Of a DNA stretch of 30,068 nucleotides, positions 1,100 to 30,068 are shown piece by piece. This DNA comes from Ectocarpus siliculosus (taxonomy: Eukaryota > Sar > Phaeophyceae > Ectocarpales > Ectocarpaceae), in contig FN648038.1 of assembly GCA_000310025.1 (NCBI GenBank), forward strand, positions 7,334 through 37,401, written 5' to 3'. The position numbers were made by a program, and so were the translations under genes. Under the pieces are notes generated by a model. The model was not told the origin of the DNA. It saw only the letters and a program-made list of their open reading frames with translations, and searched no databases. Within the stretch, counting starts at the first letter, position 1. Every line of letters starts with the position of its first letter.

Positions 1100-2040
1100 C
1101 TAACGAGGGCAGAACGTCGCGCCTCCGACGTGTACCACGACTCCACCAATCACTGCCCGGTTTATTTGCAACGACCAGGCCATTCGTGCATTCGGCAAGC
1201 GGCTGACGTGGTGCGTCTATGCCCTGACTACACACCTTCACCACACGCAACAACCAAGCAACCAAGTCTCCGCATGACACGAGACAAAGAACCCTACTGC
1301 TTATTGTGCGCCTCCCTTTCGATCCCGGCGAAAAGCGGGGGAGGTTGCGGTTGGTGTCGTGCATCCAGCACCGCAGTCTGTAAAGCATACCCGCCAGAAA
1401 ATATCAAAACTTGCCGTGAAAACGTTGTAGTTCCATAGTGTATGTTCCTGCTTTTCATGCGCATCCCAAAGTACAAGGCGTACGGGGTTCGAGTCCTGGC
1501 GCGGCCGTTGTTTTCGCCTATTATCTTGGCTGCATGTAGAATGACTTAAGGGACAGGCTCCGCACCAACCAACGCACGAACTTCCAGAGTCGTCTGACCC
1601 CGAAAACCTTCAGGCAGAGCGTAGAGCGGTACTGCGGTGGGACGAGTACTCCATGTACTGTGGGTTTTTGCCCTCCTGACACGACACTTACTTACATTAA
1701 TACTTTCGAAGGACATGTTGTAGTTGCTGGGATGATGCAAGAAGAGATAATGTACAGCATTTTTGTATATTCTCCTCACACGTAGACGACACATTTCCCG
1801 GTGGTGTTGGGGCACATGCGCCTACATCGTTGTATGGTCTCTGTACAACTAACTAGACGTTGTTCTTGCTGCGGTGTTGTTTCTTGCCCCGTCTGCATGT
1901 TTTACCCGATATCATTCATTGTGCGTAGTATCAGGTACGCGAACAAATGAGCACTTTACATACATACTTAGTTCGTCTCATCTCCAAACCACCCGAACAC
2001 AGCACTTGGCGCCGCCATACAACCTGCGAGCGTAGCGCCG
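1100..2040. other. no gene seen
   Basis: Short ORFs on both strands show no domain or splice structure I can defend. A tRNA B-box-like string occurs near 1486-1498, but no tRNA can be folded there. Confidence 0.5.
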
Positions 2041-2080
2041 ACCGCAAAGCGGTACGCCGCAAAGCGGTACGCCGCAAAGC
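2041..2080 (+). repeat. 15-bp tandem repeat, about 2.5 units
   Basis: The unit CGCAAAGCGGTACGC is repeated in tandem, seen directly in the sequence. The unit is itself partly palindromic (GCGGTACGC-like). Confidence 0.8.
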
Positions 2081-2463
2081 GCCCTTGTGTCAGTTACGCT
2101 TTCTCTGAGAACTCTTCAATTTACTTGTTTCATATTCGCGTCGGCCGCTGACAGGCCAGCATTCCCATTCTCGGGGCTCTCACAGGTCGCCGTTTCTCCC
2201 ATCGGTTCTACTTGGGTGTCAAGTGCGTTGATTCTCAACGCGGCAGTCCGACTGTCCTTGCCACAGGTTTTTATGCTCTCCCCATTTTGTGCCCCGCGCA
2301 TACGCTCGCTCCACACCCGCTCCACGTTCAACGCTGGGCTTCCCAACAGAGCAATACACACTCCAATAAATACTGCCTATTTACTCAGTTGTGTGCATTT
2401 GCGCGTTTTCATGTTTCCCGCCTCTAAGTGCTTTTGACAGCTTACCAAAAGGTTTGGCGACGT

Positions 2464-2558
2464 TTGTCTCTCTGTCTCTGTTTCTGTCGCTGTCGCTGTC
2501 GCTGTATCTCTCTTTCTCTCCCTCTCTCTCTCTCTCTGTCGCTGTCTCTCCTCCCTTT
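2464..2558 (+). repeat. CT-rich microsatellite (CTGTCG / CT)n
   Basis: A pyrimidine-rich tract mixes CTGTCG/CTGTCT hexamer-like units with uninterrupted CT dinucleotides. It makes long Ser/Leu/Arg/Glu runs in shadow frames on both strands; these are not genes. Confidence 0.9.
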
Positions 2559-2777
2559 GCCCGCGCGCACGGCGTCGAGACCTTCGGCGATAGTCCTTGC
2601 GCGCACACCACACTCTCAACTGGCACGCACTTCTTCGAGCCTTACGTACATCTCGCACACGTTCCAACACACACGATGTACAATATTTATCGAAGGATCG
2701 TTTTTCATCTACACTGTATCCGATCCATGCCTATAAACCCAACGCCAACGCTCGCCTGCCCACCAAAAAAACAAGCG

Positions 2778-3015
2778 TTTATTTTGTTTTCTTTCGAATT
2801 GCTTCATTATTTCTTCGGTTTCTAGGCTACGTGTTGGGGAGAGAGACGCACGAAACGCTCATCGTCTCTCCGGCCGCGTTAGCTGCAAAGGCCGGCGTCA
2901 ACTCTTACAAATCCATCTCTCTCCCCACAAATACTAGCCGGGGGACTACGACTGCAAACGCAGGAGTCCCAAAACTGACCAAGTCCTCAAATGGTACACA
3001 CCATTCTACAACACC
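2778..3015 (-). repeat. split direct repeat B2 (element 3' terminus)
   Basis: This 238-bp copy looks identical to 3347-3584. Its outer end at 2778 is the element boundary; on the other side homology stops abruptly at 3015. Confidence 0.85.
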
Positions 3016-3083
3016 TGACTAGATACCGAATATTCCCGAACTTATGCCCCCACCTTCGAAAGAAAAGGGATGGGAGGGCGGGA

Positions 3084-3346
3084 TTTTCTAAACTGCCGCC
3101 GCTACTGCGTTAGGCGGCTGCTGCTGTCCTTCCGTTGCTTCACGCGCTCTGTAGCTGTCACACGTTACCCGACTTTGCTACAGCCCCTGCGTGGACTCGA
3201 TCACGGAATGACACCCCCAACTATAGACTAATAATTCCAAACACCGTGACCCTGGGTTTCCGGTAGAAAATGAAGCCAAATTCTAATTCGACTGTTACAA
3301 AATAAACACCAGTTTATTCTATCTGCTTCGACGAACAAACCTTCCT
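3084..3346 (-). repeat. split direct repeat A2 (internal copy)
   Basis: This 263-bp copy looks identical to 8779-9041 and directly abuts repeat B1 at 3346/3347. That junction equals the element's two outer ends joined together. Confidence 0.85.
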
Positions 3347-3584
3347 TTTATTTTGTTTTCTTTCGAATTGCTTCATTATTTCTTCGGTTTCTAGGCTACG
3401 TGTTGGGGAGAGAGACGCACGAAACGCTCATCGTCTCTCCGGCCGCGTTAGCTGCAAAGGCCGGCGTCAACTCTTACAAATCCATCTCTCTCCCCACAAA
3501 TACTAGCCGGGGGACTACGACTGCAAACGCAGGAGTCCCAAAACTGACCAAGTCCTCAAATGGTACACACCATTCTACAACACC
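3347..3584 (-). repeat. split direct repeat B1 (internal copy)
   Basis: It looks identical to 2778-3015 and lies about 40 bp downstream of the tyrosine recombinase stop on the minus strand. Short ORFs shared by both copies are by-products of the repeat, not genes. Confidence 0.85.
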
Positions 3585-3625
3585 CACATCGAGGTCAGTT
3601 TCTGGACGACTACCGAATAAGTCAA

Positions 3626-4780
3626 CTATCCGTTCCCCCAGACGGTCCCCTCCCCCGGCTGTCTCGATACGATCCTACTGCCGTCTGTAAGTTTCCGTGA
3701 CACTCGCCGCGAATCCTCTACATTGTTTCGCGCGTACGGCTTGTATGCATCCGACCTCCACTTCCCTTCTCTCTGAATCACTCGTTCTGCGATGTCTCCG
3801 CCCGATGCAAGAGCCGTCGCGCCTCCAATTCGCAACGAGTGCAACGCGTACTCCTGGGGGTTACGCCCCGACCTCGCTACCACTTCTCTGAGTGCACGGA
3901 GGGCAGCAGTATACCTCACTACTCTCACTGCTCTTCCACTACGGTACGAAGCCAACGGTGCGGAGTCAGGGAACGTCGCATGACACGATAACAGCTCCAC
4001 CACAAGAGCCACCGCGCCACCGCGTGCTCTCACACCTGACTGCGGTCCGGTGACTTCGTCTCGCGTACGAACCCGTATGTTTCCTTTCTGCTCTTGATCG
4101 GCCTTGTGCCCTCTAAACCTCATTTCGACACGGTCTGCTCTACGATAGTGACTAAAGACTAATTGCGTCTCGCCAGCAAACAATGCTACGTCCGCCCTCG
4201 TAAGACAGTGTGCCTCATGCACCCTGCCCGCATCATTCGCGAACACCTCATCAGACCGTGTGATAAAGAGATAGGACAAGCACAGACACAGCCACATCAC
4301 TCTGCCCCCTTCCCCCCAGTTCTGGCTTGCGCTTTCCCCGTCCAGCAGCATACGCCAAGACACAGGCAGGCGCACACGGCGTACCGTCCCCACAGCCACG
4401 TGGTTCCTCGCAATCCCCCTTAGCGCACATTTCAACATCGGAGACGACAAGTCTAGCTCGACAGAAGCTTCCAGCCTATGAAAATGTTGTACAGCCGTGA
4501 GTTTTCCGGATATTGTACTCGCTAGATTACCCTCAGACTCGAAACACCAGGCTACGAAGTCTATCAACTCCCACACATGAAGGTCCCCGGCACGTTGCCC
4601 TAGGAACTTGGGCTTCTCCGTCAGCCTGCGAAACGTGCACCAAGAGTTGAAGCCTGACGTGTAAGTCCTTCTAGACGAAGACGCAACTGAGTGCTCGACG
4701 AGCTGCATGCCAAGACGTCGGTAACAAAGTCCCGTCCTGCCTGTCCCAGGTCCTGAACCTGCTGATAGCCCTGGAGCCAA
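3626..4780 (-). CDS. tyrosine recombinase / phage-integrase-like transposase
   Basis: A 384-residue frame with the layout of a tyrosine recombinase. The N-terminal third is helical and SAM-like (around residues 25-130). The catalytic domain follows: Arg in F-I-T-R-S-D-E-V-F (about residue 175), a probable beta-hairpin Lys (K226), the H-S-L-R box (H314, R317), Trp in G-K-W-R-S-D (about 341, the usual His/Trp position), and a catalytic Tyr in A-Y-K-P-Y (346 or 349). All catalytic positions appear present, so the enzyme could be active. The start at 4780 is a non-ATG codon; the frame stays open upstream and overlaps the CCCH-finger frame, so the true start, or a frameshift fusion to the upstream gene, is undecided. 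Such enzymes integrate circular intermediates of DIRS/Ngaro/PAT retroelements or move Crypton DNA transposons. The split repeats around it favour PAT/Ngaro. Confidence 0.85.
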   Translation of the reverse strand: MAPGLSAGSGPGTGRTGLCYRRLGMQLVEHSVASSSRRTYTSGFNSWCTFRRLTEKPKFLGQRAGDLHVWELIDFVAWCFESEGNLASTISGKLTAVQHFHRLEASVELDLSSPMLKCALRGIARNHVAVGTVRRVRLPVSWRMLLDGESASQNWGEGGRVMWLCLCLSYLFITRSDEVFANDAGRVHEAHCLTRADVALFAGETQLVFSHYRRADRVEMRFRGHKADQEQKGNIRVRTRDEVTGPQSGVRARGGAVALVVELLSCHATFPDSAPLASYRSGRAVRVVRYTAALRALREVVARSGRNPQEYALHSLRIGGATALASGGDIAERVIQREGKWRSDAYKPYARNNVEDSRRVSRKLTDGSRIVSRQPGEGTVWGNG

Positions 4781-4873
4781 CCTCGTGTAGACCGGCGTGC
4801 TGCCGTTCGATTTAGCCGCAGGTGCGCTGCCATCCGAGGTAGGCCCCCCCGCTACGCGGGAGAGCCCGCACCC

Positions 4874-5822
4874 CTATTTGTCTTTCCCGTGGGTGAAGAA
4901 GCCAGCGGCCTTGGGTCTCGCGCCGCCCTCGCCAGCGGCGCGCGCCTCTCCTCCGCGCCCTCCCCCGTTGCCGTGGCCAACGCCGCGCGCGCCGGTTGCC
5001 GGAGTTTCGGACGCTCCGCGCCTAGCGTGGGAAGGGTTCTGGGCGTGGATGTGTGGGCAGTTACGATCATGGCAACCGGACGACGAGTTGAAGGCGAAGC
5101 AGTAACCACGAGCGTGTCGAGCGATGCCGCCACTTTCTCTGTCACCAGGACGCCTTTGCGAAGCAAGGATTGCCACTCCATCTGCGACAGTTTTGAAACT
5201 GCCGGGGGCCGCCCCAGGATGAGCCACGCTTTTACCCGGCGGAGGTCCCCCCACATCCGCGCTCTATCCTTTGCCGTAGCCTTAGCCGCCTCGGCGCTGG
5301 GTGTAGCGGGGGCCCGAGAGGCCGATGGTGGGGCGGTTGTGCCCACAAGTTGCACCCCCCCCCGGAAGGCCAGGTCCTGCTGCTTGGGGTGGCGATCAGG
5401 TCGTCGATCGTTGCTTGAAGCTGCTGGCGATCACCGGCAGCCTCATCGCGCTTCCGCTGCAGCTCCTCCCTCAGGCCGTCCACCAGCCCGCGGAGAGAAG
5501 CGAGCTCAGTCTCATCAGCGGGGGGGTCGCCGCGGGTGCCTGTCCCTGGCGCTCGCGAGGAGGATACCGCTCGACGCCTCGCGGGAGTACGTGATCCGCT
5601 GCGCGTCGAGGGGCGAGCCGTCGAGCTCGCCACCGATCGCGCGGTAGACCTCTCGTGCGTGGTGTCGAAGGTGTCGCCGCCCGACCTCGCCCTGCTTGCC
5701 CAGCCGCTGCCCTGCCGCTCCGCGTGGAGGCCCGTGTCGGCATCTGGTCGCGGTTGGAGTCGTATAAGCAGCGGACCGGCGGCAGGCGGCGGGCGAGCGT
5801 CAGGGCGGCGTTGCGGGAACAC
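4874..5822 (-). pseudogene. gag-like protein with coiled coil and CCCH zinc finger, frame broken twice
   Basis: Three overlapping minus-strand frames seem to be pieces of one protein preceding the recombinase. The first (from 5822) is Arg/Ser/Pro-rich and ends in a coiled coil (E-T-E-L-A-S-L-R-G-L-V-D-G-L-R-E-E-L region). At the C9 run (5355-5363 on the plus strand) the plausible frame switches to one containing D-L-R-R-V-K-A-W-L-I-L-G. Near 5100-5150 it switches again to a frame with C-F-A-F-N-S-S-S-G-C-H-D-R-N-C-P-H-I-H, a C-x8-C-x4-C-x3-H type finger. The tail is Gly/Ala/Arg-rich and ends at 4874. A finger of this type beside a recombinase fits a nucleic-acid-binding gag-like protein. The breaks may be mutations or homopolymer sequencing errors. 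Function is inferred from context. Confidence 0.6.
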
Positions 5823-6129
5823 TTCTTTTCCTCTTCATCGTGGGCGTAGTCGATCGCGCGCCTGGATCTGCAGTTAGAATGGTCTACAAATCCTATCTTC
5901 GGGCGAAACTATCTGACGTGGGTTTTCGTCGGGCCCAGAACGACGCGTTGTTATATCGCGAGCTCGCGTTAGTTCATTCTCGACGCCTGTGGATTGAATG
6001 GAGTGATTATTGCTGCTGACGCTACGGTCACCGGACGTCGACCAATCCCGAATATTTCTCTCTTTGGAACACTAGCGATGGTTTCTCTTTTTTTTTTTTT
6101 TTATATATATATTTTCTTGGATTCGGTGA

Positions 6130-7625
6130 ACCCCGGTTCGCCATCGGCACGGGTGCTTCCACTCATTGGCGCGTCCCGTGCTGATACGTGTTTTTTTTTT
6201 TTTTCGATGCGTTGGATACGGTGAACTCCACTTGCCAACAGCGCGGGTGCTTCCACTCATTGGCGCGTCCCTCGCTGAAACTGACAACACATATGCAGCA
6301 CGGGTGCTTCCACTCATTGGCGCGACCCGCACTGATGATACTTGTACGCACCGCGGGTGCTTCCACTCATTGGCGCGTCCCTTGCTGAAACTGACAACAC
6401 ATATGAGCACGGGTGCTTCCACTCATTGGCGCGTCCCGTACTGATACGTGTATGACTTCGTTTTCGATGCGTGGAGATCGGTTAATTCTACTCGCCCAAC
6501 AGCACGGGTGCGCCCACTCATTGGCGCGTCCCGTACTGATACGTGTACGGCGTTTTTGTTCTTTCTTTTTGAGATCGGTTAACTCTACTCGCCAACAGCA
6601 CTCATTGGCGCGTCCCTTGCTGAAACTGACAACACATATGCAGCACGGGTGCTTCCACTCATTGGCGCGTCCCGTACTGATACGTGTACGACTTCATTTT
6701 CGATGCGTTGAATTCGGTTAACTCTACTCGCCAACAGCACGGGTGCGTCCACTCATTGGCGCGTCCCGTGCTAATACGTGTACGGCGTTTTGTTCTTTCT
6801 TTTTGAGATCGGTTAACTCTACTCGCCAACAGCACGAGTGCTTCCACTCGTTGGCGCGTCCCGTGCTGAGGCTGACAACACATATACAGCACGGGTGCTT
6901 CCACTCATTGGCGCGTCCCGTACTGATGCATGATTTGTGGTATTTCCTACCGCTGCGTTGAATTCGGTTAACTCTACTCGCCAACAGCGCGGGTGCTTCC
7001 ACTCATTGGCGCGTCCCGTGCTGATACATGTACGGCGTTTTGTTCTTTCTTTTTGAGATCGGTTAACTCTACTCGCCAACAGCACGAGTGCTTCCACTCA
7101 TTGGCGCGTCCCGTGCTGAGGCTGACATCACATATGCAGCACGGGTGCTTCCACTCATTGGCGCGTCCCGTACTGATGCATGATTTGTGGTATTTTTCTA
7201 CCGCTGCGTTGAATTCGGTTAACTCTACTCGCCAACAGCGCGGGTGCTTCCACTCATTGGCGCGTCCCGTGCTGATACATGTACGGCGTTTTGTTCTTTC
7301 TTTTTGAGATCGGTTAACTCTACTCACCAACCGCACGAGTGCTTCCACTCATTGGCGCGTCCCGTGCTGAGGCTGACATCACATATGCAGCACGGGTGCT
7401 TCCACTCATTGGCGCGTCCCGTACTGATGCATGATTTGTGGTATTTTTCTACCGCTGCGTTGAATTCGGTTAACTCTACTCGCCAACAGCGCGGGTGCTT
7501 CCACTCATTGGCGCATCCCGTGCTGATACATGTATGACTTCGTGTTTCGTTGCGTTGAGATCGGTTAACTTCCACTCGCCAACAGCACGGACGAGTGCTT
7601 CCACTATTGGCGCGTCCCGTGCTGG
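6130..7625 (+). repeat. minisatellite array with 251-bp higher-order unit
   Basis: About 19 copies of a core (GTGCTTCCACTCATTGGCGC followed by GTCCCG) recur roughly every 50-100 bp, separated by a few spacer types (CTGATACGTGT, AACTGACAACACATATG, GAGATCGGTTAACTCTACTCG). From about 6950 on, three-core blocks repeat with a 251-bp period (starts at 6950, 7201 and 7452), giving higher-order structure. The ORFs across the array on both strands are repeat translations with no independent support. It lies inside the body of the tyrosine-recombinase element. Confidence 0.9.
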
Positions 7626-8778
7626 TGCGTGTCCTTGTTTTTTTTATTTTCATTGAGATCACTTCCGCATAGACAATCCTACGGCAGGTTGACGAGTTTT
7701 TGGCATGCATCAATTGCTGTCCGGGCGTTTTTGGTCGCTTAATCGTCGATGGACGTGACGTATTCTTATAGAAGGTTTGTGTCACGGCGGCAATAAATTT
7801 GACGTGATGCCCCTCGAGACCGTGATGCATTCACATGGACCGCTACCTGACGTTCCTCGCGAGTTCGAACCTCGCGTGTCACATCCACCTCCCCCCCCTA
7901 TTTTTTTCTCATCTTCTTTTTCCTTATGCATACAGCACGTAGTTCGCTGTCTCGTTTTTTTTTTCTCGTCTTCATTGTTTTTCAGTCTTTTTCTTTGAGT
8001 CTTTCTCTCGCATGCATGTGTTTTTGCTTTTATCCGTTCCCGTGAATGCTGTTGAATGCACTTTCCGATTACGTATGCGGCCGCTTTGTATGCCATGGGA
8101 CTTGTCGATACCATCAGTGGGGACTTGTCAATACCATCCGTGGAGACGATTGCTTACGTGAGTGGGCATATTATCGTCGATTCCTTCAGCTATATGCCCC
8201 TCTGTGCGCGGCACAGACAAGATTGTACCGGCAAGTAGTCCCTAGTAAGCCGGGGGAAACAGAAAACAAGGCACCTGCCTCATGTGCATAATCGTGACAG
8301 CATCATGCCCTACTGCCGCGGGTCGATTGGTTATGTCCGATGCCGCAGGGTTCCTCCACCCCGTGCAGTACAATGGCTGCTATCAACCGCGACAAGTCAG
8401 CGTGCGACCATACAACAGGCCCCGCTCTTTCTTTTTGCCGTTGAATTTTTTCTTCAGAGAGAGTACGTCTGGTTGGGACGAACCGCATTTTTTTTCTTCA
8501 GCGAGAGTACGTCTCGGTTGGGATGAACCGCATCCCATGTTTGGGAAGGGACCTATCTGAGCGGCGCGGCGAGCGAGACTGCGTTGGCTTGCCGCCGCTT
8601 ATCTTACTGCACCCTCCCCCCTCGTGCTAAATGCACGCAGCGGTGAGGTCACAAGAGTAGCGGGACGCGAATAGGAACACGGCCGACACGATGGATGTTG
8701 GACACGAGTACACACCTTTATATGGAGAGTCGCGTGCTGGTCACTTCCCCAATGCTTGCGCCGTGTCCCGTCCCGCCC
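7626..8778. other. element body without recognisable gene
   Basis: This stretch lies between the minisatellite and repeat A1. Short ORFs are present on both strands, T-rich tracts lie at 7900-8000, and a short duplicated motif (GAGTACGTCT...GAACCGCAT) occurs twice at about 8460-8535. I looked for a reverse transcriptase or RNase H signature and saw none. Confidence 0.6.
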
Positions 8779-9041
8779 TTTTCTAAACTGCCGCCGCTAC
8801 TGCGTTAGGCGGCTGCTGCTGTCCTTCCGTTGCTTCACGCGCTCTGTAGCTGTCACACGTTACCCGACTTTGCTACAGCCCCTGCGTGGACTCGATCACG
8901 GAATGACACCCCCAACTATAGACTAATAATTCCAAACACCGTGACCCTGGGTTTCCGGTAGAAAATGAAGCCAAATTCTAATTCGACTGTTACAAAATAA
9001 ACACCAGTTTATTCTATCTGCTTCGACGAACAAACCTTCCT
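8779..9041 (-). repeat. split direct repeat A1 (element 5' terminus)
   Basis: This 263-bp copy looks identical to 3084-3346. Homology ends sharply at 9041, which I take as the outer boundary of the element. Unrelated flanking DNA follows, then a 5-bp target duplication of the next transposon. Confidence 0.85.
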
Positions 9042-9055
9042 ATATCAAACAAACC

Positions 9056-9420
9056 TGTTGATTGGCCCCAAGCCGAGTGCTGCTGGATGAGCACGGCTGT
9101 CCCGTTTGACAATGTGAAGAGATGGTAAAGTCGTTTTATTGGTCGTCCTCGTAGACACAAGCAACGGAAGAGAGTGGGCACCCAGGTGCATCACAAACAC
9201 CGAGGCACGCGAGCAACAGTCACAAGACGCATTCGGAACTCGGAATACATGGCAGCAAGGAATGCGCGACAACTTGCCAAAGATCCTACTACCGGAGATA
9301 CCCCGAAGATCCAAATGACCGATGGACGGTCACGCACTTGCGCACCTGCATAGCTCAAAACCACACATGAGTACTACCGCAATAGCCTTCGTAAGGATGG
9401 CATAATCCACCTCACGAACA
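9056..9420 (-). repeat. 3' LTR
   Basis: The 365-bp repeat looks identical to 12039-12403 and begins TG and ends CA. It is preceded by AAACC, one half of the target-site duplication. Confidence 0.9.
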
Positions 9421-10665
9421 CCCTCCCTGATTCTGTACATCATAACGAATGCTCTCAAAACCAAAGCGCTCAGGGTACTCATAGAAAACTCCAAAAAGAA
9501 ACAAAAATAAAACAAACGAAGGGAAACCCGGCCACCGGATCAAAACCCTCCGCCCCCACGGGTCATCCTGCTGATTGAACTGTCAACACAATCAACACAG
9601 CAGTCACAAAGTTGCAAACCTACACGTCTACAACTGTCAGGCATTTGTACTACCCCTTTTCAAGTAGTCCCCTCCCAGCCAACAGGATCCCTACTGTATC
9701 GAGTTGCTGTCAGCACCGCGGCGCGCCTAAGGCCACAAGCACCAATGCCAAATTGCAGCGGAAAAACGTAAAACCTAACGCTACATCGCTAAATGACATT
9801 TTTATAGAGGGCGATCAACCAAGAGGAAGATCAAGCAGTATCTCAACCACAACGGCCCCACGCTTCGAGAGACACTGGACCTAGACATTTTTTTTTTGCT
9901 ACTCCTTCACAAGTAACTCCCTCCCAGCAACAGGATCCCTACTGCTGTATCCAGCTGCTGTTAGCAACGGGGCGCGTCTGCAACCAACCCCGATCACCAT
10001 TGTCGATCACATGACAGTGAGGGGTGCCCCCCTCGGTCTGTACATCAATGAAAGATCATATAAAAGGGCAATCAACCACATGTTAGGGGAGGGTGCCCCC
10101 TCTCAGCCTACACATCAGAGGACGATCGAAGCAGCATATCAATCACAAACAGTTCATCAACCAGCCTGCCGGTACCTGCTAATATGAGAGACGCTGGTAG
10201 CCATCTATCACGGAAAAAGGCGTCATTCATCAGCCCTCCCTGATTTCAGGCAAAATAATTCCGAACATCATCAATCAAATTGGTGTGACCGCAGTGCCCT
10301 GCGGATCACCATTCCTCAAAGTGAGACGACAACGGAATGCCACACCATCCTCAGTATTTCATCGTGCAATAAGCCTCATCATGGCTCAACCTACGCGGTT
10401 AGTTACTGAGATGCGCATGGAATACCGGACAGGCAACATCGAGTTTCGTGGACTGCGTTCGTATCCCGATCGAACACAAAAGAAAAAAAACAACGAGCGA
10501 ACGGCGGAAAAGTAACAGGCCAGAAAAAAATTCCCCTTTGTACTTTCGTCAGTCGTATCATCAAAATCGGCTCTTTATGGGGAAATGCCGACGAGCCGAA
10601 TTGCACGCAAGGCACGAAAGCGAACGGGCGTTGATGCACCGCTGGGAAAACAGATCTAGACAACA
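9421..10665. other. LTR element interior without pol; degenerate internal repeats
   Basis: No pol domains are visible. Two diverged copies of a segment containing CAACAGGATCCCTACTG lie near 9660-9730 and 9905-9980. Related strings around GGGTGCCCCC occur near 10022 and 10090, so the region has grown by internal duplication. Confidence 0.55.
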
Positions 10666-11989
10666 TCAGAGTGCTTCGTATGCGACGTCCAACTCGACAC
10701 CACCGACTCCAACTTCAATCGCGGCGACTGCAGTTTCAGTTCTCGATGGGCAGTTTTTCGCGTTGTGCCCCTTTTTTCCGCACCTCTGGCAAAGCTTCTC
10801 TGGGCATGCACTCGCATAGTGGTCACCATCACAGACGTAGCACTTGACTCTCTTATCGCTAGCTAAATTCGCCTCTTCGTAACCTCGGTTTTGTTTCGGA
10901 CGTCTCTTTCCTCCCCCCTTCCCCTCTACTGCTACGAACGCATGATGGTTCGCTCGCCGATCACTCTTCCCCTTCTTTTCCTCCGCTTTCAGTTGCCCAG
11001 CCCGTGTGCGAAGCACTCTCAAAATCTCTTCTTCATCGAGTGTTTTCTGGGCGAGCAGCTGTTGCTTTTGAATCTCGAATTCCGGGGAAAGCGCATCGAG
11101 GAACCGCGCATACACGAGCATTTTTGGGATGGGCTGGTCGAATGCCAACTCTAGGTTAGTCACTACGGACTTGAACTCCTGGAAAAACACTCGGGGTTCC
11201 TGGTTCTTCCCTTGTTGGGCATTATAAAACTTTCCGATCAGCGAGATCTGCTCGCCGCCGGTCAAGGGGGTGAATGTTTCTTCTAACGCACGCCACGCTG
11301 CCGAGGGCCCCTTTCGATCGTACACCAGCATTTTTGTGGAGTTGTTGGATATCGCTCCGGTCAGCATCCCCCACAAATCCCGGTACATGGCTATCTCCCC
11401 TACTTCCACTCCTTGCTCTATCATGCCATCATCGTCTACGCCTAGGACCTCAATGTCTCTGCTGTCGCTCAAGGCGCGACCCATCCCACAAGTCTGAACC
11501 TGCGTAATGAAATCGTTTCGGAACATCAGCCAGTTTTTCTCGTCTCCGTTGAAGTCCAACTGTTTCAGGCGTGGGATACGGGCATGCGAGCTGAAAGCAT
11601 ACCCGTGAAGCTTGCTCCTCTCTGCTGATTCCCTCTCGCGAGATAGCACCGTGTGGTGTAGGCTCTCGTGTTTCCGGGCCTCGCAGTCCTCTCGCTCCCT
11701 CGAGCCCTCGTCCAGTATTCGGCGCTTGGTCTAGCTGACCCGCGCCAGGGAAGGCGTGCGTCCTCCCCTGTGACTCCCCCCCGCCGCCCGCTGCGGTCGC
11801 ACTTCCGGCGGGCGGTGTCCCGGGCACTAACCGGGACAAGGTGTTCATGATGCCTTCCAGTTTCTCCGTCACCATCTTCTCCATTCTGGTGCTGGCGTCG
11901 CCCACGGCGTCGTCGATGACCGTCCTAAGCTCCTCATGAGTCGGGCCAGCCTCGCCCCCGCCAGAGTTCCCAGAGTCGTTCGAAGACAT
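10666..11989 (-). CDS. retrotransposon Gag with two zinc knuckles (one internal frame break)
   Basis: This is a Copia-type Gag. A short disordered/coiled N-terminal part starts at the ATG 11987-11989. The main capsid-like part follows (P-R-L-K-Q-L-D-F-N-G-D-E-K-N-W, then the W-R-A-L-E-E-T-F region). The C-terminus is basic with two zinc knuckles, C-x2-C-x3-H-x4-C and C-x2-C-x4-H-x4-C. The first knuckle has one residue fewer than the canonical CCHC spacing. The N-terminal and main parts are in different frames and overlap around 11690-11735, where one base of shift would join them; this may be a mutation, a sequencing error or a frameshift site. The stop at 10666 ends the protein, with no fused protease or integrase. 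Gag packages element RNA into virus-like particles; this copy would need pol from another element. Confidence 0.8.
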
Positions 11990-12038
11990 GTGTGTCTGCC
12001 GCACTAGACTATGACGTTAACGCCACAAGACTCTAGAG

Positions 12039-12403
12039 TGTTGATTGGCCCCAAGCCGAGTGCTGCTGGATGAGCACGGCTGTCCCGTTTGACAATGTGA
12101 AGAGATGGTAAAGTCGTTTTATTGGTCGTCCTCGTAGACACAAGCAACGGAAGAGAGTGGGCACCCAGGTGCATCACAAACACCGAGGCACGCGAGCAAC
12201 AGTCACAAGACGCATTCGGAACTCGGAATACATGGCAGCAAGGAATGCGCGACAACTTGCCAAAGATCCTACTACCGGAGATACCCCGAAGATCCAAATG
12301 ACCGATGGACGGTCACGCACTTGCGCACCTGCATAGCTCAAAACCACACATGAGTACTACCGCAATAGCCTTCGTAAGGATGGCATAATCCACCTCACGA
12401 ACA
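12039..12403 (-). repeat. 5' LTR
   Basis: The 365-bp repeat looks identical to 9056-9420 and is followed by AAACC, the second half of the target-site duplication. Being upstream on the minus strand, it should hold the element promoter. Confidence 0.9.
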
Positions 12404-15954: not shown

Positions 15955-17312
15955 TGCCGAGTTTCCATGGAAGTTGCCTAGAAATCGAGACGAACTCTTC
16001 CACGGAAGGAAGTTGTTCTCTCTCATGGAAGTAGCTCAATGCTTCCATGGAAGTTGATGTCCAGTTGTCACAAACACTTCCATGGAAGTTGCTCTCATGG
16101 AAGTAGCTCTCATGGAAGTAGCTTGCTTCCATGGAAGTTGCTGTCCACTTGCCTAAAACACTTCCATGGAAGTTGCTCTCATGGAAGTAGTGTGCTTCTA
16201 TGCAAGTACCTTCCGGTTTAGTGGCAGGGATCGATGGACGGACTTCCATGGAAGTGCACTTCCATGGAAGCTCGATGGTCCTTCCGTAGAAGTTGCAGAC
16301 GAGACTTCCATGGAAGTAACCACCCCTGATTCCGTGGAAGCTCCATCTACATCCATAAAAGTATCTCATACTTCCGTGGAAGTCGCGTGGAAGTTCGGTG
16401 GTGATTTCGCGCAACAGCTTCCACGCGGCTTCCGTGGAAGAAGCTTTCACTTCAATGGAAATAGATGGAGCTTCCATGGAAGCGAGGCGAGCAGTGGGCT
16501 TCCATGGAAGTAAACATTCACTTCCATGGAAGTAGAATTTGACTTCCATGGAAGCGTGTCCCATATGTACAATGGGCACCTGAAACAGTCATCATGTCGT
16601 TCTACCACCAGATCCGACTTCACACGAACATGCGACGTATGTTTCTTCTTTCCCCAGTTAAAAAACAGGGCCAAGGGTGGATCCCCCCGCTTATGGTAAG
16701 GTGGGAAAACCTGCCATGGAAGCTGAGACACGCGGAATACAATCTACTCCTCCTCCTCCCGTCATGCTACCTACTGTACCATGGTTGACTTCCACACCTG
16801 GAGCGGAGAGTAGGACGAGTGATGATGTACTTCCATGGAAGTATCGCCATGACATCTGTGAACGTTCCCATGGAAGTCGCTCCTGAATACTTCCATGGAA
16901 GCTTGGGGCGGGTGGCGTGCTTCCATGGAAGTATCGCCACGATTCGTTTGGACAGCTTCCATAGAAGCCGCATATTTTGACTTCCACGGAAGCTGGGGTC
17001 GGGTGGTGTACTTCCATGGAAGTAGAGCGATGATGCTTCCATGGAAGCTAGATATTATGCTTTCATGGAAGCTGTCTGATTATGGCCTACTTCCATGGAA
17101 GCACGTGGAAGTGGGTGTAATCGACTTCCGTGGAAGCGCTCCAAACTACTTCCATGGAAGTTGAAGCTTCCATGGAAGTTGTTGCTGACCCCCCAGCTAT
17201 GTGAACTTCCACGGAAGTCGCCCACACTTCCATGGAAGTCAGTTTCGAGCTTCCATGGAAGCTGAAATCAATGAACTTCCATGGAAGTAAACATCTACTT
17301 CCATGGAAGCTA
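15955..17312. repeat. field of dispersed 12-bp palindromes CTTCCATGGAAG
   Basis: At least 20 exact copies (about 23 counted by eye) and some 15 one-base variants lie in about 1.36 kb, separated by irregular unique spacers of roughly 10-50 bp. Weaker relatives start near 15770. Most variants are transitions at the centre (CCGTGG or CCACGG for CCATGG). Because the unit is a perfect palindrome whose length is a multiple of three, every frame on both strands reads F-H-G-S, S-M-E-V or L-P-W-K, which explains the overlapping ORFs here; I do not call them genes. A gap with few copies lies around 16580-16720. Confidence 0.9.
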
Positions 17313-18250
17313 CACACATATGGACAGTAATGTAGAGGACTGGCAGAGGGAGAGGAGAGTCGAAGACTCTCCGCTTCCACTTTCGGCAAGTGGCCAGGGA
17401 CTTCGGAAGATATCCATCGCCGACGGTGCATTTCTTGTCACTCTCCTTGTGACAAGATACTACCCCGACGGAGCCATATCTTCCTACACTTCGTATGTGC
17501 ACACATGGTTTTATACTCCTGACAGGTGTCCTCCACAGCTCCACAGGCACGAGAAAAATGTCAATTTTCAGCTTTCGAGGGAAACCGTGCTTTGGTACAA
17601 ACAAACAAAAAAGCAGGAATGTCATTGGGACTCCCGCCCGCGTAAAACCCGCTCTCCTCAATAGCGGCACAGCAGACAGCAGAGTGTGAAAAGCAAGCCC
17701 CCTGCAAAACCGCGCCCAAGGCAGAGCGTGACGCACGCAGTACTGTTACAAGTGATTCTCCTAAAATACCACCCTCTAAATAATAGGTTCATCGATTCCT
17801 ACCATCAATCGCCGCACACACAGGTTGACCCGCCTCCACGTTTGAACCAAAAATGCGTCAGGTGTGCAGTCTACAACGGGACGGGGGGGGGGTGTTATCC
17901 GACGTGATCGTCAAAAAAACCCATTTCGACCCACAAAAATCAACACATGGTCTTTCTTCGACCTCATTTTTGGGGGTTCCGCGAATCGATTCACCCCCCC
18001 CCCCCCCACCCCCCCGTTCAGGGTTGAAGAAAAAGGCTTTCTTCGCCATCCAGGTCCCCTGATAAAGTTGGTTCTCCCTCCCCTGTCGCCTCTTCCGCCA
18101 GCGCTGCTGCATCTCTATCAGGGAAACTGCCCGGCGGATGTGGCGCTCCCAAAACGCTCAAGAGGCTGGCCACCTGCAGCATCGAACGCGGTGGTCTTTG
18201 GTGCTGTTGTTGTTGCTCTAAGCATTGAAAACTCCGCCCATTACCGTGTG
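17313..18250. other. no supported gene; poly-G and poly-C tracts
   Basis: Homopolymer-rich strings lie near 17883 (G run) and 17993-18015 (C-rich run). A minus-strand frame at about 18018-18200 with Q-Q-Q-Q and acidic residues has coding-like composition, but it has no start or clear splice partner. Confidence 0.4.
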
Positions 18251-27124: not shown

Positions 27125-27166
27125 GACCAGTTCGCGGCCGCTAGGCCGTCCTTTGGCCGTGGGTGA

Positions 27167-27195
27167 GGGTTAGGGTTAGGGTTAGGGTTAGGGTA
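27167..27195 (+). repeat. interstitial telomere-like tract (TTAGGG)4
   Basis: Four consecutive TTAGGG units, flanked by GGG on the left and TAG on the right. Further single TTAGGG-like strings occur near 28022. It is followed by a twofold GAGGAACCTAGCCTTG repeat (27206-27245). Confidence 0.9.
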
Positions 27196-27721: not shown

Positions 27722-28480
27722 TCCTCGACAAGCTCAAAGCAATAGCGGCGATTGTGCTGGTGCTGACTGTCGCCACATCGACTGTCGTTCAGCGCCTAAC
27801 ACCCAAGACGCGGCAACGTATCCACGAGCCGTGACGGCTGGTTTGGGACGAGCACTTAGAAGATGTGAGGCGCAGGAAGCTGTTCCGACGCATGTACAGG
27901 ATGGAGGAGCACAGCTTCGACAAGCTCGCGGAACTTTTACGACCCATCCTCGAGCGCAACGACTTCTACGCAAGTAAGAGATATACCCACACAGGGTGCG
28001 TCCGCGCGTGAGGAAGAGCGAGTAGGGTTAGGTTTCGTCAGGGTTGTCTTGCCGTCGCGAACACAGCCGCCGGTTTGCACTTGTATTTGCTGCTCACCGC
28101 TGATGTCCGAAAGATGAATTGGCACCGCCAGGGACATCAGCAGCGCAGGAGACGCCTTGGAGATGGCATGTGCGCTGATGTCCGTCCGGCGATGCGCCTG
28201 ACAAGTGCTTGGGCTTCGAATTTACCGGTACATCCATGCTTGTATTCTTGTTGGTCGCGTGGTGCAGGGTTGCGCGCGAGCAGTGGAGCTGTGCCGGTGA
28301 AAATTCGGCTGGCAGTTGCGCTGTGCATGTTCGAGGGGCGTCATACATCGATGTCGGCTTGCTGTTCGGCATTTCGAAGGAGTCCGTCTTCCACATCATG
28401 TGGCAAGTGGTGGACGCCATCAACAACACGCCGACGGTGGGGTCGTTCTTTTTTCCCCAGACACCAGAGGAGTGCTCCCG
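27722..28480 (+). pseudogene. PIF/Harbinger-like transposase (HARBI1/DDE_Tnp_4 type), N-terminal half, broken
   Basis: Exon 1 (to 27973) contains R-R-K-L-F-R-R-M-Y-R-M-E-E-H-S-F-D-K-L and ends N-D-F-Y-A before GTAAGAG. Exon 2 (28268-28480) starts after GGTGCAG in matching phase with L-R-A-S-S-G-A-V-P-V-K-I-R-L-A-V-A-L and continues with Y-I-D-V-G-L-L-F-G-I-S-K-E-S-V-F, then ends before GTAAGC. The R-R-x-F-R-M start, the L-R-L-A-x-x-L box and the helix-turn-helix-like G-I-S-K-E-S-V resemble the N-terminal half of Harbinger-type DDE transposases. A TGA (27832-27834) interrupts exon 1, and a one-base shift at a G4 run in exon 2 (near 28335) breaks the frame. No DDE catalytic part is seen downstream, so it is truncated and probably inactive. 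Family assignment is from motif memory, not a search. Confidence 0.7.
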
Positions 28481-30068
28481 GTAAGCGAAGGAGTGGGAGG
28501 TCGGTGCATGTTTGTTTGTATCATAGGTGTTGTACTTTAGTCGAACATCGTATGTGGTCTCCCATGCACTTCTACTATTGCGGGAAGGGGATCTCTGGCA
28601 TTTTCCCCTGCATCCCCTCACTCAGCAACATGGAAGCGAACGTGTTGTGGAGTCCAAGAACGACTCTTACAGAGTGGGCGCCTGTGTGTTGCATGACATT
28701 TCGTAAATACCCAGTCCTACACTCAAAATTCCGGACAACAGCACGCAAAATTCAACAGGTTACTACTGCCTACCTCCGGCCCCGTACGGCGGTAGACTAG
28801 TGCTGTAGATTTTTTTCACCCTCCCAATAGGTTGACATCAGACCCATAAACGTGGTCAAAACGCGCGCGTCCACCCTTACGTTGGGAAGGTCAGCAACAT
28901 TTTGTTGCATGCGGGAGGCGCTATCGCCCCCGAACCTTCATTTCGCCCGCCGATAAGGTAGTAAGCTACACCACGGCTGTACGAACCGTCGGCCACGCTC
29001 TGATGTACTGTTGTGTGTTTAAGGGCGTCTGTCCTCACACTCCTACGAAAAGATTGTCACGTGTGTATGTCGACTCGGGTCATACAAGAGGATAATGTGG
29101 AATAGCTTTTTTTTTTGTTGGAAAACGTACCTGCAAAGTAGGCTCGTGCGTTGCTAGAAAATGCTCGTTTATACCACACCAACCAGAGAAGCGCCGTGTG
29201 ATTTCCAGAGAAGGGGTGTGTGTGTGATCATCAGCTACATACATCGCAGCCCAAGAAAAAACTTTCTCTGTTTGTTCTCTCTCTCTGGTTGGAGCTTTGA
29301 TCTATGCACTGTAGACAACTCCAAAGCGTGTGATTTGTGGTCAGACTAGCACACGGAAGGGACAGGCGGCACCCCAGGCCCTCGCACAAAAGTATGGAGA
29401 GGTTTACACATTGATCATCAATAGTGGTGTCTAGCCGCGTGTTGGTGTGCATCTTGTCCTCTCCCGCTTATGACGAAAACGCTGCCGCTCGCGAAACGCA
29501 CAACACAACCAACGCTTCTTCTCGTCTCCTCTCGCTTCCTCCGCCGATAGCAAACAGCTGTAGAGTACAGGGCACACCCTCCCGCCTTGCTCTTCCGGTG
29601 GTGTGTGTGTGTCTCCCGCCCCCCATGTCCATCAGCCCTGTCTCTCTGTAGCGTGTGTGTTTTGGCACAGGAGCAGCAGCTGCTGCTGAGCACACCGACC
29701 GGCGGAACAAAAAAAAATCACGCCTGCCTGTGATTTTGGGCGAGGACGCTTGGTTCTCTACTTCAATTTCGCCGCAGATGCTGTGCTAGCTCGATGCACC
29801 GAGCACGGATTGAGCTGGAAGCAGTTGTGACAGCTCGGGCAAAATTCTACTTTTTGTGCACCAATCTTGAATTGCAATTTTGTGCCTAGATGGCGCAATG
29901 GACTCGAGTCTCCTGTCTGTGTATTTATCGGCACACAGACACGGCCGGACACACTCGCTACGAACTGGCCCCCCTGTGCACGATTTTTTGTTTTTTCACG
30001 TACGTACATGCACATCACGATCCCTCTAAACAGCTTTTTCTTGCAAAAAAAACAAATAATTGGGCCGC
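28481..30068. other. no supported gene
   Basis: Short ORFs occur on both strands with no domain, start context or splice structure I can defend. Simple GT/AC-rich and T/A-rich strings are scattered through it (29100-29120, 29216-29226, 29705-29720). The expected DDE half of the Harbinger-like transposase was looked for here and not found. Confidence 0.5.

Follow-up and report, generated by a model that had tools for sequence, protein, structure and literature searches.

We report that the element at positions 2778 to 9041 (minus strand) of a 30,068-nucleotide stretch of Ectocarpus siliculosus DNA, hereafter the window (G000:C42:7334-37401 of an assembly of 189.46 Mb in 492 contigs; window G+C about 53%), is, judged by its sequence, a non-autonomous member of a Ngaro-type tyrosine recombinase (YR) retrotransposon family that lacks reverse transcriptase (RT). 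Relatives in the same genome carry the same split direct repeats together with RT and RNase H, and our data make it likely that the RT was lost through reverse transcription of a spliced RNA from such a parent, in which the RT-RNase H region would lie within a GT-AG intron. The following were read directly from the sequence: the structure of the element, its RT-bearing relatives, the GT-AG ends of the missing block, the recurrence in three families, and one integration junction at an empty site.

The window copy (coordinates in Table 1) has an open YR frame with residues that fit the catalytic set (R206, K257, H345-x-x-R348, W372 and Y380), as stated in an earlier annotation made from the letters alone (the original prediction). 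The first Met of this frame is residue 56, and its first 38 residues are the N-terminus of the RT-RNase H frame of the parent. The single window YR gave no match in Pfam, NCBIfam and PDB searches and a family profile was therefore needed; the profile of seven YR relatives matched Cre weakly at the C-terminus (E 0.011), which with the catalytic residues argues for a YR and not a DDE integrase. The gag-like gene, with a motif that we take to be a CCCH-like finger, is broken: set against the relative L058 it has lost 511 bp, which shifts the frame, and 84 bp, which does not. There is no RT frame among the body frames of at least 100 amino acids (aa). On both points the original prediction was right.

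RT-bearing relatives and the boundaries of the missing block

Two options had been left by the original prediction, a non-autonomous split-repeat family that keeps its own recombinase or a new YR class with split repeats and no RT, and a search was advised for relatives whose gag and YR flank an RT/RNase H. Two were found. L058 (contig C74) has the full A1-B1-A2-spacer-B2 arrangement in an element of approximately 8.44 kb with three open frames: a gag-like one of 564 aa, RT-RNase H of 768 aa, which overlaps the next, and YR of 392 aa. In L016 (C27) the A1, B1 and A2 repeats are present and the corresponding frames are 542, 690 and 392 aa. Since the A and B repeats of both are 97.3-98.3% identical to those of the window, the window element would not be a new RT-independent class; the first option is borne out and the second is not supported.

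In six aligned RT-RNase H frames the D of motif A, FGW..SP, YVDD and the RNase H residues D/E/D/D are invariant, and in an hhalign comparison with Gypsy-type RTs of the same genome the motifs align in order (E 0.0063). These Gypsy-type sequences, seven in number and used for comparison only, came from a genome search with RVT_1 in which 150 of 1041 candidates were scored. We accept the frames as RT-RNase H on the combined motifs. Single weak Pfam matches in the six frames (DinB_2, Peptidase_A17 and FAP42_B3) are to unrelated families and were disregarded, and a 1341-aa frame in L009 was rejected as an RT because it is mostly a run of N. Scanning viral_contigs with this alignment brought no confirmed relative. 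L065 and L066 have more distant RT-RNase H frames (921 and 1232 aa) with long N-terminal extensions, and at G000:C460:210532-213852 matches to RT-RNase H and YR lie within one 1112-aa open frame.

Relative to L058 the window copy is without 2054 bp containing RT-RNase H (2056 bp relative to L016). One of six equivalent placements of this gap reads CAG/GTGTGG...TGGCAG/GTT (slashes mark junctions throughout), that is a GT-AG placement, phase 1 on both sides, which joins the N-terminus of the RT frame in frame to YR; neither of the two gag deletions has a GT-AG placement. Donor-like sites are present at the homologous place in other RT-bearing relatives, CAG/GTGTGGATGC in L061 and L062, AAG/GTGGGA in L063 and CAG/GTGACG in C50, and acceptor-like sites at the start of the YR region read TGGCAG/G (L061, L063 and C50) or TGGAAG/G (L062).

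The splicing idea had already been stated when we turned to other families for RT-less YR copies; in these the RT is 53% and 40% identical to that of the main family. L082 (C183) is RT-less and joins CAGCAAG/GAACAAC at the GT-AG boundary of its RT-bearing relatives; it has an open YR frame of 422 aa and keeps a 496-aa gag frame ahead of the stop. L084 (C33), likewise RT-less, joins CTACCAG/GAAGTGG at the GT-AG boundary of its RT-bearing relatives and has an open YR frame of 466 aa. In the window, L082 and L084 the YR is in frame with the upstream frame. The junctions of L010/L083, L082/L063 and L084 were taken directly from the sequence letters; L085 (C4) is rearranged and was not used. As a control we counted microhomology deletions of 1.5-2.6 kb that allow a GT-AG placement: in L058 these are 910 of 87905 (at least 3 bp of microhomology), 96 of 5918 (at least 5 bp) and 29 of 1496 (at least 6 bp), i.e. 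1.0-1.9%, and in L063 1254 of 55258 (at least 3 bp; 2.3%).

Recurrence of the loss and alternative explanations

Within the main family, 16 YR sites separate L058/L016 plus window/L007/L014 from L083 plus L010/L011, with 0 sites for each of the two other groupings, and the same split has 2, 1 and 2 sites to 0 in gagR, B and A, respectively. RT-bearing copies occur on both sides of it (L058 and L016 on one, L083 on the other), and so do RT-less copies (window/L007/L014 versus L010/L011), so that, whatever the position of the root, RT must have been lost at least twice unless exchange moved the deletion. Moreover, four outgroup sites join the window-type copies with RT-bearing ones (L058, L016 and L017) and none joins the two RT-less lineages; gag gave no usable outgroup for this test. 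These outgroup sites and L083 argue against a single RT deletion common to L010/L011 and the window. We infer that RT was lost at least four times in three families via reverse transcription of spliced RNA.

Recurrent DNA deletion, or RT template switching at short matches (GCAGGT, AGG and CAGG), could also have removed the RT, without splicing. There is 3-6 bp of microhomology at each junction, and ordinary deletions do occur in these elements, such as the two window gag deletions (D1 and D2), the gag deletion of L010/L011 and the large deletion of L013. We nevertheless consider this unlikely, since the losses, at least four in three families, all fit GT-AG as opposed to 1-2% in the microhomology control, since YR is kept in frame with the upstream frame in the window, L082 and L084, and since D1 and D2 themselves do not fit GT-AG. 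That one ancestral RT deletion was spread among lineages by recombination or gene conversion is far less probable still: the junction is indeed identical in window-type and L010/L011-type copies, and L083, nearest to the window in A and B although not in gagR, suggests that exchange may occur, but L082 and L084, with different junction letters and in families at 53% and 40% RT identity, would be left unexplained.

We give even less credence to a separate YR class with split repeats that moves as DNA only and has no RT. RT-less copies are numerous and recent (106 junctions, and 13 of at least 102 YR matches at the top score, the window included), with split repeats and YR intact; however, there are RT-bearing elements with the near-identical repeats described above, RT-bearing copies lie on either side of that split, and the YR frame of RT-less copies starts with residues of the RT frame. 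As the origin of the element, an RT-independent class is contradicted by these sequences.

Several points weigh against the preferred explanation, that a spliced RNA of an RT-bearing parent was reverse transcribed. Splicing is deduced from DNA; the donor GTGTGG departs at +4 and +6 from the general donor consensus GTRAGT; and the acceptor TGGCAG also codes for a conserved Trp-Gln of RT-RNase H, so that its conservation is no evidence by itself. The acceptor AG is absent at that position in the more distant L065 and L066. As to the RT, the hhalign probability against the Gypsy-type RTs is just 5.9, RVT_1 gives matches that fall short of its cut-off (E 0.0095-0.02) in two of the six aligned frames, and profile searching of the PDB with RT-RNase H brought no match. 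Families 2 and 3 are each represented by a single RT-less copy, of which L084 is without most of its gag. In the main family the gagL comparison was made without L083 and the site count without L017; the YR of L083 differs by 4.0-4.9% from every group, and by its A and B repeats this copy is nearest to the window copies, not to L010/L011. The YR N-terminus of L010/L011 is in another frame, so this YR may not work. Finally, DNA-only spread by YR may be an alternative route for the RT-less form.

Repeat layout, genomic copies and integration

The two repeat pairs had been described as identical-looking, and alignment shows that they are identical (Table 1). The predicted order A1-body-B1-A2-B2 with B1 and A2 abutting also holds, except that a 68-bp spacer, which had gone unmentioned, separates A2 from B2. 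This spacer is 100% identical in 12 loci (L001-L009 and L012-L014; 10 distinct copies) as well as in L017 and L058, while L015 has one inserted base and L010 and L011 are 98.5% identical. The predicted minisatellite is present in the body, and L007, L014, L015 and L058 give repeated matches in the corresponding part. No inverted pairs of 30 bp or longer were found in window 2000-10000, and thus no DIRS1-like inverted terminal repeats. In the eight copies examined with both ends (L007, L008, L009, L012, L013, L014, L015 and the window) these ends correspond to 9041 and 2778; deviating ends were one of three findings named beforehand as speaking against the original prediction, and none of the three was encountered.

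Table 1. Features of the window copy and its surroundings (window positions)
Feature	Position	Strand	Remarks
Element	2778-9041	-	A1-body-B1-A2-68-bp spacer-B2
Repeat A1	8779-9041	-	5' end of element, starts AGGAAGG; identical to A2 (263/263)
Body	3585-8778	-	Between A1 and B1; L007 body 99.7% identical along its length
Minisatellite, approximately 251-bp period	6357-7624		Tandem Repeats Finder
Broken gag-like gene	4877-5908	-	Scars of the 511-bp and 84-bp deletions near 5110 and 4984, respectively
C-terminal gag remnant, 129 aa, presumed CCCH-like finger	4877-5263	-	In frame with the YR frame downstream
TAG stop, then GGG, between gag and YR frames	4874-4876	-	Proposed readthrough stop
Proposed exon-exon junction ATCAGCAG/GTTCAGG	4758-4759	-	Approximately 2.05 kb with RT-RNase H missing relative to L058
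YR frame, 415 aa plus stop	3626-4873	-	Open
Repeat B1	3347-3584	-	Identical to B2 (238/238)
Repeat A2	3084-3346	-	Adjoins B1
Spacer, 68 bp	3016-3083	-	Separates A2 from B2
Repeat B2	2778-3015	-	3' end of element, finishes in ATAAA; identical to B1
Uninterrupted copia-like sequence, empty site for L009	10236-10836	-	Both 300-bp flanks match (99.3% and 98.3%)

Protein and DNA searches of the genome scored the best candidates only and their counts are lower bounds, whereas pattern counts are complete. The layout recurs, with 90 exact B1/A2 junctions (0 for the reversed control pattern) and 220 A starts with at most two mismatches (control 0), and the YR search gave at least 102 matches (101 scored of 755 candidates), 13 of them, including the window, at the top score. 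The spliced junction, with at most two mismatches, occurs 106 times, and unspliced acceptors and donors, with at most three, occur 10 and 7 times, respectively (reversed controls 0 throughout); RT-less copies outnumber complete parents by approximately 10:1 in the genome. RT-RNase H at 92% identity or higher was found at no fewer than eight loci (C27, C74, C187, C79, C147, C156, C14 and C85; 64 of 491 candidates scored), with the matches in C14, C156 and C85 in two pieces each; open RT frames occur among these loci.

Copy L009 is inserted in copia-like sequence of which an empty copy lies in the window itself, the only empty site to emerge from a comparison of the flanks of eight copies with the loci then collected. 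The flanks of L009 meet at window 10537. The target reads GTACAA/AGGGG, the left end GTACAA/AGGAAGG and the right end ATAAA/AGGGG, so that beyond one shared A there is no target-site duplication. Joining the element ends would recreate the internal B1/A2 junction; the B2/A1 junction of the joined ends would read AAAATAAA/AGGAAGG. The bases to the left of the element are A-rich, with A at -3 in 24 and at -4 in 19 of 25 copies, and the last 10 bases average 22% G+C as against 49% 20-30 bases away (25 of 28 copies; L020/21, L034/35 and L048/49 were dropped because B2 is not at the expected place).

Two variant arrangements were seen. L060 (G000:C12:1581800-1583500; copy C12:1576818) carries one further A-spacer-B unit in tandem at the 3' end (B1-A2-sp-B2-A3-sp-B3), with the join precisely at B/A, as expected if B/A is a recombination site. 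In L067 and L068 the 5' end of one element holds two copies of A (377 and 452 bp apart), both continuing into the start of the body, which resembles a partial 5' duplication.

Elsewhere in the window, a Copia-like element at 9056-12323 has long terminal repeat-like matching repeats of 285 bp (about 9056-9340 and 12039-12323), one of which lies approximately 14 bp from the end of the YR element, and its gag frame (10666-11730, minus strand) has a weak zinc-knuckle match. The palindromic motif CTTCCATGGAAG underlies several arrays, with periods of 15-34 bp, at 16020-17316, and a short telomere-like GGGTTA array of 5.7 copies is located at 27161-27194, internal to the contig. A 101-aa frame at 28179-28484, overlapped by a frame without a Pfam match, resembles by eye the start of a Harbinger-type transposase.

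Classification and proposed expression

By repeat layout and domain content alone, Ngaro-type fits the family better than PAT. The split direct repeats are arranged A1-ORFs-B1A2B2 (ORFs, open reading frames) with the extra spacer, and RT and RNase H, missing from the window copy, are present in the family (L058, L016 and other relatives). PAT elements of the DIRS group share the split repeats, but a methyltransferase sets that group apart from Ngaro (PMC4157794), and a scan of the frames from gag onwards (gag, RT-RNase H and YR) matched none. As there is no methyltransferase between RNase H and YR, and RT-RNase H runs into YR, the Ngaro half of the predicted PAT/Ngaro assignment fits better by this criterion than the PAT half. 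The PAT-like Pat1, Toc and Kangaroo have in common with the window family, as far as the sections covered of PMC4157794 go, split direct repeats, a YR and a finger in the gag region, and differ by their methyltransferase. The Ngaro of Cafeteria burkhardae (sections covered of PMC8547959) is likewise A1-[ORFs]-B1A2B2 with a gag-like ORF, RT plus RNase H and YR, as is our family; it is approximately 6 kb compared to 8.4 kb in Ectocarpus, and its YR was reported to match PF00589, which the YR of the window family did not. The window copy differs from it also by the lack of RT/RNase H, the 68-bp A2-B2 spacer, and an RT that in its relatives lies between GT-AG boundaries. Cryptons, in the part of PMC3212892 covered, have YR as their only coding part, as has the RT-less form, and are described without long direct repeats, unlike the window element with its long split repeats and RT-bearing parent.

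In Ectocarpus sp. 7, 15 Ngaro and 5 PAT-like families are catalogued (Table 1 of PMC12477816), so the window family itself is probably known and likely to be in that curated library. The sections covered of PMC12477816 do not describe RT-less YR copies or splicing of Ngaro or PAT-like elements. The Gag-only Copia families given there for Ectocarpus are likewise non-autonomous with one parental gene kept, but it is gag and not a recombinase, and the text covered draws no link to splicing. An RT acting as an intron, or RT-less YR elements from spliced RNA, were not found described in the sections covered of PMC3537659, PMC8547959, PMC4157794, PMC3783388, PMC3266345 and PMC3212892, nor was anything matching seen in the titles and abstract openings listed on splicing of YR retrotransposons or on spliced retrotransposon copies (Poulter and Butler 2015 and Goodwin and Poulter 2004 lay outside this set).

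With respect to translation, an in-frame stop followed by GG lies between gag and the RT or YR frames. Gag and RT/YR are in one frame around TAG in the window, L007, L014, L016, L017, L083, L063 and L082, and C50 has TGA as the in-frame stop. L058 has one base fewer just ahead of the stop, which alters the frame there, L061 and L062 have TAG-GGG with different local frames, and the pattern used did not match in L010/L011. These arrangements suggest that readthrough of the gag stop could yield Gag-RT or Gag-YR. L062, L063 and L064 have no Met at the position of window Met56 in their YR frames, which fits a YR made as a fusion. Introns may have been reported for some Ngaro elements.

Taken together, we infer splicing, stop readthrough, RT supplied in trans and a circular intermediate as steps of the following scheme. 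The parent would be organised as gag, stop and RT/RNase H overlapping YR, and a GT-AG intron would enclose the RT/RNase H coding part. From the unspliced RNA, Gag would be made and, where the stop is read through, Gag-RT; readthrough at this stop in the spliced RNA would lead to Gag-YR. Occasionally the spliced RNA would be reverse transcribed by RT supplied in trans, and the resulting RT-less DNA would be circularised via the B/A junction and integrated by YR, with split repeats and YR kept. The RT-less form would then have multiplied, presumably using RT of its RT-bearing relatives; as these are few, its spread probably depends on RT from a small number of copies. We lean, with less assurance, towards the more general view that RT-RNase H is a regulated retained intron, that the spliced RNA also serves as an RT template, and that these families keep shedding RT-less, YR-bearing satellites.

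If true, this would lead directly from YR retrotransposons to YR-only elements, and RT-less, recombinase-bearing satellites could come to outnumber their parents. The scheme provides a concrete and testable origin for RT-less YR elements; it suggests how a poorly understood group may split RT and YR between two RNAs, and how an RT-less form that carries its recombinase can dominate a genome.

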